NCBI GenBank assembly: GCA_020629635.1
Contig: JAHDCX010000002.1
Location: forward strand, 283,726-347,725
Length of the DNA stretch: 64,000 nucleotides
Source: Acidimicrobiales bacterium
GTDB lineage: Bacteria; Actinomycetota; Acidimicrobiia; Acidimicrobiales; SHLQ01
Direction: 5' to 3'
In this document: positions 48,253-53,105 of the stretch, one piece after another
Layout of the letters: each line of letters opens with the position of its first letter
Numbering within the stretch: position 1 is the stretch's first letter
Notes under the pieces: model-generated
What the model saw: the letters and a program-made list of their open reading frames with translations, nothing else
The model's database searches: none
What the model was told of the DNA's origin: nothing
Program-made: the position numbers and the translations under genes

Positions 48253-48849
48253 ATGCAGACGACGTGGACGCGCGCCCGGTTGCTTCTTGCTGGTGCCAGT
48301 GCGGTTTTGGCGGTCGCGTGCGGGGGAGACTCCGTCGCCACCTCCGGTGCAGATGCCGGGGCTTCGGGAGCGGACGCAGACGCGATTGCCCAGGCCGAGG
48401 CGAACCTCGGAGACCTGGAGTCGGCGGCGAGCGATGTTCGAGACATCGAGGTGCTCGACGTCGCGGACGGATCGATCGCCACGTTGCGAGAGGCGGTCGA
48501 CGGTGATCGACCGGTTCTGCTCTGGTTCTTCTCCCCGCATTGACCGACCTGCCGGCGCGAAGGGCCGGCCGTCGAGCAGTTCGCTCGAGAACACGGTGAC
48601 TCCATCCAGGTGGTCGGTCTCGGCACCCAGGACGACTTTGCGTACGCCCGCGACTTCATCGATCACACGGGTGTCGAGTCCTTCACGATGCTGTGGGACC
48701 CCTCGTTTGCGACGTGGCAGGTGTTCGGCGTCCAGGCGAACTCCCAGATGATGGTGCTGTCGCCGGATCTGAGCCAGGGGAGCAACCTGATCTACGGGTT
48801 CAACGACGATCAGCAGCAGGCGATTCTCGACCTCATCCCGAACATCTGA
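48253..48849 (+). CDS. Thioredoxin-like (TlpA/DsbE-type) lipoprotein, candidate UxxC selenoprotein
   Basis: The frame from ATG 48253 (GTG 48244 also possible) has a lipoprotein signal (RARLLLAGASAVLAVAC, Cys23), an Ala/Asp-rich spacer and a thioredoxin-fold strand DRPVLLWFFSPH. It then meets TGA at 48541-48543 and continues in the same frame as PTCRREGPAVEQFAREHGDS to TIQ-like redoxin sequence (VVGLGTQDDFAYARDFIDHT, WQVFGVQANSQMMVLSPD), stopping at TGA 48847-48849. The TGA falls exactly where the first Cys of the CxxC active site belongs, so read-through gives UPTC and a 198-residue protein with Sec at position 97. It would sit on the outer face of the membrane as a thiol-disulfide oxidoreductase. 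A TGC-to-TGA nonsense mutation is the alternative. Confidence 0.72.
48541..48573 (+). promoter_or_regulatory. Possible bacterial SECIS hairpin directly after the in-frame TGA
   Basis: After TGA 48541-48543 the RNA can fold as GAC (48546-48548) with GTC (48571-48573), an internal loop CT/C with a bulged U, then GCCGGC (48551-48556) with GCCGGC (48564-48569), and a 7-nt loop GCGAAGG containing GG. A helix with a bulged U and a guanine in the apical loop, within the coding region just downstream of UGA, is the bacterial SECIS layout. The loop is rather close to the UGA, and GC-rich hairpins are frequent in this genome, so this is suggestive only. Confidence 0.4.
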
Positions 48850-48988: not shown

Positions 48989-50203
48989 ATGCCCACTCCG
49001 CGACTCCGGCACGCCGCCGTCGCTGCCTGCCTGCTTATCCCGACGGTCCTCGCCGCTCCCGCGACGGCCCAGAACGCCACGGACGCAATTGTGTGCATGG
49101 GTCTGACCCCGGAGGCCGCCGAGGCCGAGGGGTATCGAGTGCAGATCGGAACCGACCGCACCGACGTGCTCGTGGGCGGCAACACGACCAAGGACTACAT
49201 CGTCGGACTCGGTGGCGATGACGTGCTCACCGGTGCGGGCGCCAGCGACATCATCTGCGGTGGCGATGGAAACGACATCATCAACACGGGTACCGGTACC
49301 GACCAGGCCCACGGTGGCCCCGGCGTCGACGACCTCAACGGCGGCAGCGGCAACGATCTGCTCGACGGCGGCGACGACGACGATCGAGTCGTCGGCGGCG
49401 AGGGTGACGACACCCTGTACGGCGGCAACGGCAACGACCGCGTCTCGGGCGAGGACGGCAACGATCGCATTCACGCAGGCGGCGGCGCTGACGTCGTCTT
49501 CGGCGGCCGTGGCGACGATCGCATCAACGGATCGAAGGGCAACGACCGCATTGCGGGCGGACCCGGCTGGGATCGCCTCTTCGGCAAGGGCGGCGCGGAC
49601 ATCATCAGCGGCGACGCTGGCCGTGACCAGATCTTTGGGGGCATCGGCGCGGACATCTTGGACGGCGACCTGAAGAAGGACCGGGTGACCGGCGGTCGGG
49701 GCGTCGACCGGTGCGACGACGACGACGGCGACAACCTGCGGAGCTGTGAGCTCGACCTCGGCGGCGACCCGCTGGTGGTCGAGGACGCTGAAGCCGAGGC
49801 GACCAGCACCGCGACCACCGAGGTGTTCACCGAAACGGAGCCGCCGCCACCGGCCGGTGACCCCGTCCCCGCCGGCGAGGCGCCTCAAGGAACCAATTCG
49901 TTCGGCTGGCCGCTGCTGACCGATGTCGGTCTGGCTGCCATGCTGCATTGCGAGTCGACCACCAACCACGCAATCAACACCGGCAACGGGTTCTACGGCG
50001 GGGTGCAGTGGCTTCCCGCAACGTGGAATGCGGCCGCTCGTGGAGCTGGCTTCGATGAGTACGTCGGCGTGCTGCCGCACCTGGTGCCCGCCGAGGTGCA
50101 GGACACCGTCACGAAGTGGTGGTGGTCCCAGACTCGTCCGAACACCCAATGGCCGGTCTGCCACAAGCGGGCGCTCGAGGCAATGAACGTGCTCGCTCCC
50201 TGA
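48989..50203 (+). CDS. RTX calcium-binding repeats fused to an Rpf/transglycosylase-like domain
   Basis: 404 residues from ATG 48989 with a GAGGTG site 8 nt upstream. A signal peptide (AAVAACLLIPTVLAAPATAQ) is followed by RTX-type nonapeptide repeats, GGxGxDxxx, from about residue 60 to 250 (GGDGNDIINTG, GGSGNDLLDGG, GGNGNDRVSGE and others). A Pro/Thr/Glu linker follows. The C-terminus (about 305-404) resembles the resuscitation-promoting factor lysozyme fold: MLHCESTTNHAINTGNGFYG with the catalytic-type Glu, then GVQWLPATWNAAARGAG. Two Cys (HCES and PVCH) may pair. It is probably a secreted, calcium-folded peptidoglycan hydrolase. Confidence 0.87.
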   Translation: MPTPRLRHAAVAACLLIPTVLAAPATAQNATDAIVCMGLTPEAAEAEGYRVQIGTDRTDVLVGGNTTKDYIVGLGGDDVLTGAGASDIICGGDGNDIINTGTGTDQAHGGPGVDDLNGGSGNDLLDGGDDDDRVVGGEGDDTLYGGNGNDRVSGEDGNDRIHAGGGADVVFGGRGDDRINGSKGNDRIAGGPGWDRLFGKGGADIISGDAGRDQIFGGIGADILDGDLKKDRVTGGRGVDRCDDDDGDNLRSCELDLGGDPLVVEDAEAEATSTATTEVFTETEPPPPAGDPVPAGEAPQGTNSFGWPLLTDVGLAAMLHCESTTNHAINTGNGFYGGVQWLPATWNAAARGAGFDEYVGVLPHLVPAEVQDTVTKWWWSQTRPNTQWPVCHKRALEAMNVLAP

Positions 50204-50793: not shown

Positions 50794-51831
50794 CTACAGG
50801 CTGGCGACGTGCACGAGTGCGTCGCCCTTGTTGCTGAGTGGGTACAGCGACCGTCCAATGACGATGCCTGAGCGGGTCGAGCGGATCGTCGAGAGCCGCT
50901 TGCCGAAGGCGTCGATGATCGTGCCGAGCTGCTGCTTCTTCTCGACCGTGTCGCCGATCTCGACCTCGAGCCGCACGATGCCCGACTTGCCGGCCCGAAC
51001 CCATCCGGTGCTGCGGGACACGATCGGTTCCGGGGCGGGATTGCCCTTCCACTTCGCCATGCCGAGAGCGTGCAGGACGCGGCGGATCCCGCAGACCCCA
51101 ACGCCGATCGCCTCCGCGTTGAACCGGAGCGGCTCGCCCGCCTCGTAGAGCAGGGTTGTTCTGCCTTGTTTGGTCGCCGCTCCCCGGAGGGATCCGGGGC
51201 GATTCTTCGAGTGGATCATCAGTCGGGCACCAAAGGCCTCGGCCAGCTCGCGAGTGCGATCATCGTCGAGATTGCATCGGATCTGGGGAAGGTTCGTCCG
51301 ATTGTCGCTCGCCGTGTGGAGATCGATACCCACCTCACAGCGACTCACGATCTCCTCCATGAAGAGGTGGGCGACCTGGCTCGCCAACGAGCCCTTGGCG
51401 CTCCCGGGGAACGACCGGTTGAGGTCTCGGCGATCGGGCAGGTAGCGGTCGCCGGTGATGAAGCCGTGGATGTTCACGACCGGCACGGCGAGGAGCGTGC
51501 CCGACAGCTTCTTTGGATCGAGATCGGCAATCACCCGATTCACGATCTCGACCCCGTTCACCTCGTCGCCGTGGATCGCCGCATTGATCCAGACCGACGT
51601 GCCGTCCTTCGCCCCGTGGAGCGCGACGACCGGAATCGACAACGACTCGCCGGTGATGAGCTGACTGACCGGAAGTTCGACCTGGGCGCGGGTGCCCGCT
51701 GCGACGACGGTTCCACCGATCTCGAGCGCGGTCCGTTTCGGGGCGCTCTTGGCCGTGGTCTTCGTCGCTTTCGGGCTGGACTTCTTGGGCTTCTTCGTCT
51801 TGGTCGCAGGGTTCTTGTCTGCGGTGGCCAC
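50794..51831 (-). CDS. Succinylglutamate desuccinylase/aspartoacylase-type (M14) zinc hydrolase
   Basis: 345 residues if started at GTG 51831; upstream starts to 51948 would run into the divergent rimK-like start. A Lys-rich N-terminus (KTKKPKKSSPKATKTTAKSA) precedes the domain. The zinc site is INAAIHGDEVNGVEIV (HxxE) with the later His in VGIDLHTASDNRTNLPQIR. NRSFPG and RYLPDRRDLNR are the substrate loop landmarks. The catalytic-type Glu is in LLYEAGEPLRF. Such enzymes deacylate N-acyl amino acids or peptides; pairing with a divergent RimK-type ligase is frequent and suggests a shared peptide-like substrate. Confidence 0.86.
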   Translation of the reverse strand: MATADKNPATKTKKPKKSSPKATKTTAKSAPKRTALEIGGTVVAAGTRAQVELPVSQLITGESLSIPVVALHGAKDGTSVWINAAIHGDEVNGVEIVNRVIADLDPKKLSGTLLAVPVVNIHGFITGDRYLPDRRDLNRSFPGSAKGSLASQVAHLFMEEIVSRCEVGIDLHTASDNRTNLPQIRCNLDDDRTRELAEAFGARLMIHSKNRPGSLRGAATKQGRTTLLYEAGEPLRFNAEAIGVGVCGIRRVLHALGMAKWKGNPAPEPIVSRSTGWVRAGKSGIVRLEVEIGDTVEKKQQLGTIIDAFGKRLSTIRSTRSGIVIGRSLYPLSNKGDALVHVASL

Positions 51832-51926
51832 GGTTCCGTCGTTTCCGAGTGTGCGCTCGTCTTGTGCTGACTGGGCGACCTCGCGACACTCTTGCGTACG
51901 AGTCGCGCCAACGGGGCAGGAGTGTA

Positions 51927-53105
51927 GTGAGGCTTGCGATCCTTTCACGAGAGCCGAGGAGCTACTCGTCCCAACGCCTGAAGCTCGCCGCGATCGAGGC
52001 CGGACATCAGGTCCGCATCCTCGACACCCTTCGATTCGCGATCGATCTCTCCGGTGACGAACCCGACCTTCACTACTCGGGCAATCAGCTCTCGGACTAC
52101 GACGCGGTCCTGCCTCGTGTGGGTGCGTCGGTCACGTACTTCGGCACGGCCGTCGTCCGACAGTTCGAGCAAATGGACGTCTACACGACGAATTCCTCCG
52201 CGGGCATCCGCAACAGCCGAGACAAGCTCCACGCCCACCAGATCCTGGCCCGCCACCACGTCGGAATGCCCGCAACGACGTTTGTCCGCGACCGACTCGA
52301 CATCCTTCCGGCGATCGAGCGGGTGGGAGGGGCTCCGGTCGTCATCAAGTTGCTCGAGGGCTCCCAGGGGATCGGCGTCATGCTCGCACCCGACCTCAGC
52401 GTCGCGAAGGCGATGATCGAAACCCTGCAGGTGACGAAGCAGAACGTGCTCGTTCAGGAGTTCGTGGCCGAAAGCGCCGGGACCGACATCCGCGCCTTCG
52501 TCGTCGGCGACCGAGTCATCGGGGCGATGCGGCGGACGTCGCACGGCGACGACTTTCGATCGAACCTCCACCGCGGTGGAACCGCCGACGCGATCACACT
52601 CGACCCGGCGTACGCCGCCACTGCGGTCCGTTCGGCGCAGATCATGGGCTTGCGCGTCGCCGGTGTGGACATGCTCGAGAGTGACCGTGGGCCGCTCGTC
52701 ATGGAAGTCAACTCCTCGCCGGGGCTGAAAGGGATCGAGCGAGCGACCGGGATCGACATCGCCCGAACGATCATCGACTACGTCGACAACCAGGTCGCCT
52801 TTCCCGAGCTCGACGTTCGGCAGAAGTTGTCGGTGTCGACGGGGTACGGAGTCGCCGAGCTGTTGGTCCGTGAGGATGGCAGCTTCGTCGGGCGCACCCT
52901 GGGGGACAGCGGGCTCGACGAACGCGACATTCAGGTGCTCACGGTGCAGCGCGGCACGAAGGTGATTCCCAATCCCCGGTCGACGTTTGGTCTCGAGGCA
53001 AACGACCGGCTCTTGTGTTTTGGCAATCTCGAAGAGATGCGAGACATGATCCCGAAGCGGCGGAGCCGTCGGCTTCCGCGTCTCGAGCCGGGTTCGCATC
53101 GCTGA
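51927..53105 (+). CDS. RimK-type ATP-grasp ligase fused to a TrkA-C (RCK_C) domain
   Basis: 392 residues from GTG 51927. The N-terminal part (RLAILSREPRSYSSQRLKLA) and ATP-grasp core match RimK-type glutamate ligases: NSSAGIRNSRDKLHAHQIL, PVVIKLLEGSQGIGVML, NVLVQEFVAESAGTDIRAFV, RSNLHRGGTA and the metal-binding VMEVNSSPGLKGIE. After about residue 305 a TrkA-C-like domain follows (GVAELLVREDGSFVGRTLGD, then GTKVIPNPRSTFGLEANDRL), usually a small-ligand sensor in K+ transport proteins. E. coli RimK is about 300 residues and lacks it. It probably adds amino acids to a peptide or protein under ligand control. Confidence 0.87.
   Translation: MRLAILSREPRSYSSQRLKLAAIEAGHQVRILDTLRFAIDLSGDEPDLHYSGNQLSDYDAVLPRVGASVTYFGTAVVRQFEQMDVYTTNSSAGIRNSRDKLHAHQILARHHVGMPATTFVRDRLDILPAIERVGGAPVVIKLLEGSQGIGVMLAPDLSVAKAMIETLQVTKQNVLVQEFVAESAGTDIRAFVVGDRVIGAMRRTSHGDDFRSNLHRGGTADAITLDPAYAATAVRSAQIMGLRVAGVDMLESDRGPLVMEVNSSPGLKGIERATGIDIARTIIDYVDNQVAFPELDVRQKLSVSTGYGVAELLVREDGSFVGRTLGDSGLDERDIQVLTVQRGTKVIPNPRSTFGLEANDRLLCFGNLEEMRDMIPKRRSRRLPRLEPGSHR

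Follow-up and report, generated by a model that had tools for sequence, protein, structure and literature searches.

The 64,000-nucleotide stretch of DNA analysed here (the window) comes from an Acidimicrobiales genome of 4.45 Mb in 37 contigs, about 97% complete, and contains a thioredoxin-like lipoprotein gene whose frame is interrupted by a TGA codon (Table 1). With this codon opened, positions 48253–48849 of the plus strand translate as MQTTWTRARLLLAGASAVLAVACGGD...LLWFFSPH-U-PTCRREGP...LIPNI, followed by a TGA stop. Codon 97 is the sole internal stop of the frame, aligns with the first cysteine of the CxxC motif and is followed by 101 intact codons. The Pfam families Redoxin (1.1e-8) and AhpC-TSA (5.4e-8) cover both sides of the TGA; an NCBIfam search returned no model above its cut-off. 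Translation and Pfam matches thus agree with the preliminary description of the locus, which had read a lipoprotein-type frame in which TGA takes the place of the first CxxC cysteine, with a redoxin half continuing in frame to position 48849. The motif is UPTC, with one Sec, and not UxxU, with two. At the place of the lipobox-like sequence, the orthologues read LLSAC, LLTAC, ALAAC or LLAAC, as judged by eye.

Table 1 Features of the candidate selenoprotein locus (positions in the window)
Feature	Position	Strand	Basis
Candidate selenoprotein gene, DsbF-like UxxC lipoprotein, 198 residues	48253..48849	+	Open frame, Redoxin/AhpC-TSA matches, orthologues in all congeners
Putative lipoprotein signal peptide, ending in lipobox-like LAVAC (Cys23)	48253..48321	+	By eye
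Predicted Sec codon UGA, residue 97, first position of UxxC	48541..48543	+	TGA in 28/28 orthologues compared
Resolving Cys100 of UPTC	48550..48552	+	TGC or TGT in 28/28 orthologues
Hairpin 1, GCCGGC...GCCGGC	48551..48569	+	Mean z −1.8 against synonymous recodings; stable in most orthologues, register not fixed
Hairpin 2, UCGAGC-AGUUC-GCUCGA, proposed SelB-binding bSECIS	48572..48588	+	Mean z −3.2, 94.8% paired
Ser164 at the thioredoxin cis-proline position, ANSQM against xQPxF	48742..48744	+	Alignment; directly precedes strand 165–169 of the AlphaFold2 model
True stop codon TGA	48847..48849	+	Translation, orthologues
RTX calcium-binding repeats, then transglycosylase-like domain (PF06737)	48989–50203		Adjoins the orthologue in several congeners

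Conservation and selection across the TGA codon

A search for relatives covered 59 genomes, the source genome included, and returned matches in 39 of them; those relatives that carry names are MAGs of Acidimicrobiia and Ilumatobacter. An orthologue with 59–68% identity and one TGA at the same codon is present in all ten congeners, and the TGA is kept in roughly 30 loci of the order Acidimicrobiales, many other families included. Of 396 genomes drawn from the phylum, 18 gave a match at 1e-12, and in most of these 18 it has the TGA; the family therefore extends beyond the order, although it is sparsely distributed. In an alignment of homologues at codon 97, all 28 orthologues have TGA, and the three homologues without it (L022, L050 and L057) have an aligned Cys. 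The in-frame UGA therefore occupies a catalytic redox position at which homologues carry Cys, as is characteristic of bacterial selenoproteins.

Comparison of the window gene with seven relatives gave dN/dS values, where computable, of 0.09–0.27 (about 0.2) for codons +19 to +98 past the TGA, and the constraint downstream of the TGA is about equal to that of the upstream part. Substitution rates thus indicate that the codons past the TGA are under purifying selection, which, together with the TGA-bearing orthologues in every congener and the shared gene neighbours of several of them, shows that the frame is not a chance one. The His codon directly 5′ of the predicted Sec codon (48538–48540) is CAT in 24 of the 25 orthologues with His there, a preference that is possibly a context effect on recoding.

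Selenocysteine machinery and paralogues

The preliminary description had proposed a search of the genome for selA, selB, selD and tRNA-Sec(UCA), and all four are present, as expected for an organism with bacterial selenoproteins. The tRNA-Sec, with anticodon TCA, lies at C28:34677–34768 (65.1 bits, exceeding the family cut-off, and also predicted by ARAGORN), selA (394.5 bits) is followed about 24 bp on by selB (280.8 bits) from C28:65725 onward, and selD (362.7 bits) itself has an in-frame TGA (FSHGAG-U-GCK). In addition, a formate dehydrogenase alpha subunit gene (L074, C3:172861–174750) has an in-frame TGA at the UHxP site (NRT-U-HAPS). At least seven predicted selenoprotein genes are thus visible in this genome, the window gene and four paralogues included. 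Selenocysteine, which had been called notable for an Acidimicrobiia-like genome, is ordinary in this lineage: a selA match was found in 44 of the 59 genomes of the relatives search, the source genome included. SelA/SelB were reported in most symbiont bins of a sponge-symbiont study (PMC5649159); our literature search found no paper on Acidimicrobiia selenoproteins. The TGA form of the gene is associated with selA, which was detected in 29 of 30 genomes with a TGA-bearing match, the exception being 73% complete, as against four of nine genomes with Cys-only matches (Fisher p = 0.0012, with kinship among the genomes ignored).

Four paralogues in the source genome have TGA at the first Cys of CxxC, reading WFWAPW-U-PTC (two genes), WFWAPW-U-SRC and WFWGAH-U-GTC, and one further paralogue is a Cys form (FFASWCPSC). 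A search of the same genome for a UxxU/UPFU gene, by pattern and by protein, found none. Double-Sec UxxU lipoproteins, WFWAPW-U-P[FT]-U, are encoded in relatives (L064–L068 and L073, in G005, G006, G010, G013, G014 and G017). Two other relatives carry further Trx-like matches with two TGAs less than 3 kb from the orthologue (L062, G004:C253; L063, G003:C76), and a motif scan of these two loci did not identify them as UxxU.

In a midpoint-rooted tree of 43 rows, the window sequence falls among its congeners, the window-type and paralogue-type groups separate with support of 100/99, and a single clade (100/100) unites the six UPFU-type rows. Mapping the Sec, Cys and UxxU states on this tree takes four changes; those between Sec and Cys may run in either direction, given the midpoint rooting and the long branches of the Cys rows.

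Two hairpins after the UGA codon

The mRNA directly past the TGA is more stable than its synonymous recodings (mean z −2.2 over the 28 orthologues), the mean z of other segments being mostly −0.7 to +0.5, and −1.0 in one that overlaps the element. Two hairpins lie past the TGA (Table 1). Hairpin 2 is fixed in position, with 94.8% of cells paired in the orthologue alignment; as a control, a shift by one to three columns lowers pairing to 15–52%. The hairpin shows compensatory changes. In five sequences a C–G pair is replaced by U–A, the Val GTC and Arg CGN codons changing together to GTT and Gln CAA, and in one sequence an A–U pair is replaced by C–G; the covariation rests on few events because the invariant part of the hairpin falls in conserved protein sequence. 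Moreover, the Ala codon at +14 is GCT in 27 of 28 orthologues, compared with 73 of 596 Ala codons (12%) elsewhere, a rare codon that hairpin 2 forces.

The published bSECIS model places the loop 16–37 nt from the UGA and gives it the sequence G[G/U] (PMC13188914). Hairpin 2 of the window conforms to this model, with its apical loop AGUUC (48578–48582) at a spacing of 34 nt past the UGA, 6 bp and −8.0 kcal/mol, as do 18 of the 28 orthologues, a count that includes the window, compared with 3.6% of synonymous recodings; none of the three Cys homologues does so, and the other ten orthologues miss the strict energy cut with gap-free stems. An Rfam search of 48400–48750 gave a chance match only and nothing relevant.

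Hairpin 1 corresponds to the structure in the preliminary description, a hairpin with a bulged U directly after the TGA. The hairpin exists, but its predicted fold has no bulged U and its register is not conserved. It could itself be the SECIS, with hairpin 2 secondary, an alternative that concerns the RNA element and not Sec; in its favour are its place as the structure nearest to the UGA and its stability relative to synonymous recodings. We nevertheless regard this assignment as unlikely, since no single pairing register holds across the orthologues (56–59% of cells paired in the two registers tested, with little or no excess covariation), its loop reads GAA and not G[G/U], and at about 15 nt this loop is closer to the UGA than the published range allows (PMC13188914), whereas hairpin 2 is almost fully paired. 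The SelB site is thus probably hairpin 2, which conforms to the bSECIS model, and not the hairpin directly after the TGA.

The UxxC paralogues, and the UPFU genes of relatives, carry a hairpin with the apical loop GGUC, as opposed to AGUUC in the window element. In five UxxC paralogue-type genes, the RNA after the TGA (14-codon windows) does not differ in stability from synonymous recodings, and, with stems kept free of gaps, four of five UxxC paralogues fall short of the strict bSECIS energy cut. Because RNA stability is not unusual there, the Sec assignment of the paralogues draws on two features only, the GGUC loop and the place of the TGA. The SECIS of E. coli fdhF has a GGUC-type apical loop, resembling those of the UxxC paralogues and UPFU genes; the window element differs from it in its AGUUC loop, in having no clear bulged U and in the additional hairpin between the UGA and the loop.

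Fold, relationships and predicted function

The nearest solved sequences are those of Mycobacterium tuberculosis DsbF (3ios, 2.5e-12) and MPT53/DsbE (1lu4, 8.2e-8). An AlphaFold2 model, computed from 37 aligned rows with Cys in place of Sec, has a mean pLDDT of 92.8 and adopts the thioredoxin fold, in which residue 97 lies just before helix 98–113, so that the [C/U]xxC motif stands at the start of helix 1. A fold search with this model returned DsbF and MPT53 first, followed by ResA and other TlpA-like proteins, among them Etrx1 and Etrx2, two pneumococcal thioredoxins that are surface lipoproteins. DsbF and MPT53 are likewise secreted thioredoxin-fold oxidoreductases, and LWFWAPWCPTC of DsbF aligns with LWFFSPHUPTC of the window protein; they differ in having Cys and not Sec, and share 25% and 19% identity, respectively, over the fold. 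Pro at the cis-proline position is retained in paralogues and more distant orthologues, whereas Ser occupies it in the window clade. A cis-proline before strand 3 is a general Trx/CMP feature that likely helps substrate binding and may prevent metal binding, according to a review (PMC2757866). Because Ser164 replaces it, the window protein is best said to resemble the DsbF/TlpA group on sequence and fold comparison, and membership in the canonical Dsb group is not claimed.

Among known UxxC selenoproteins, two entries of PMC13188914 (Prx-like thiol:disulfide oxidoreductase, PF00578; Redoxin family protein, PF08534) and the Trx-like and Prx-like groups of PMC2398784 share Pfam families, the UxxC motif and predicted thiol-disulfide chemistry with the window protein. 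The accessible descriptions in both sources name neither a lipoprotein subgroup nor Acidimicrobiia, and these groups may include the window family. The same texts describe UxxU Prx-like forms, which resemble the UPFU paralogues of the lipoprotein in relatives, and differ from the window protein, which is UxxC.

The gene very probably encodes a thiol-disulfide oxidoreductase of the DsbF/MPT53 (TlpA/ResA-like) type, putatively membrane-anchored and extracytoplasmic, in which UGA97 is decoded as Sec, with hairpin 2 as the proposed SelB site. SelB carrying Sec-tRNA(Sec) would bind the mRNA hairpin at 48572–48588 with its apical A-G-U-U-C loop, and Sec would be inserted at the UGA, 34 nt upstream of this loop; hairpin 1 would probably remain folded and so bring the UGA effectively closer to hairpin 2. 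By analogy with the family, the Sec97-xx-Cys100 pair would form a selenenylsulfide, and the protein would exchange disulfides in proteins outside the membrane. The replacement of the cis-proline by Ser weakens a plain Dsb-type role. It is conceivable, albeit rather improbable, that the Sec + Ser164 clade is not an ordinary disulfide exchanger, but uses an open selenolate site to bind a metal or a cluster, or to reduce peroxide at the cell surface, with a tandem-hairpin SECIS whose first hairpin fixes the spacing.

As far as sequence evidence can carry it, the selenocysteine assignment is very well supported: the machinery, the TGA conservation, the paralogues and the selA association all favour the candidate UxxC selenoprotein originally suggested. 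A change from Cys to TGA takes a single substitution, and the TGA alone is therefore compatible with a nonsense mutation, a pseudogene or a sequencing error that leaves the gene broken or misread. We assign this explanation a negligible probability and reject it, because the same TGA recurs in independent genomes of ten congeners and many other families, which disposes of a read error, and in four paralogues of the same genome, and because the downstream codons are selected; the decayed downstream sequence and TGC in close relatives that the preliminary description had named as refuting signs were not seen, as these relatives keep both the TGA and an intact half. Since the inserted residue is not visible from sequence alone, a suppressor or an altered code might instead place one of the standard residues, such as Cys or Trp, at UGA97, and the Sec machinery may insert some Cys under selenium scarcity. 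The gene, however, ends in TGA, homologues without the internal TGA carry Cys at this site, the complete Sec machinery is present and associated with the TGA form, and a SECIS-like element is under selection at the RNA level, all of which make this reading very unlikely. Release factor 2 competes with Sec insertion, which can be inefficient, so that UGA97 might mostly terminate, with a truncated main product and occasional read-through. This is less probable still: a 96-residue product would stop at the active site without most of the fold, and the downstream half is about as constrained as the upstream part.

The selenocysteine-containing lipoprotein is thus, on present sequence evidence, a conserved addition to the Trx-fold UxxC selenoproteins, a known kind of protein. 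Less usual are the putative surface-lipoprotein setting with several paralogues in a single genome, the occurrence of UPFU forms in relatives, the loss of the cis-proline and the proposed SECIS behind another hairpin. The lineage appears to carry Sec-containing surface lipoproteins, with five UxxC genes here and UxxU forms in relatives, a set that the accessible literature does not describe; such proteins are likely missed or annotated as truncated, since UGA is a stop to standard gene-calling programs. In these Actinomycetota, selenium-dependent redox chemistry beyond the membrane becomes open to direct test.

In several congeners the orthologue is flanked by DUF3097 upstream and by the RTX/transglycosylase-like gene downstream (Table 1). 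Further along the window, 51849–53105 encodes a RimK-like ATP-grasp ligase with a C-terminal TrkA_C domain, and an AstE/AspA-like hydrolase gene (50794–51948) lies beside it on the opposite strand.
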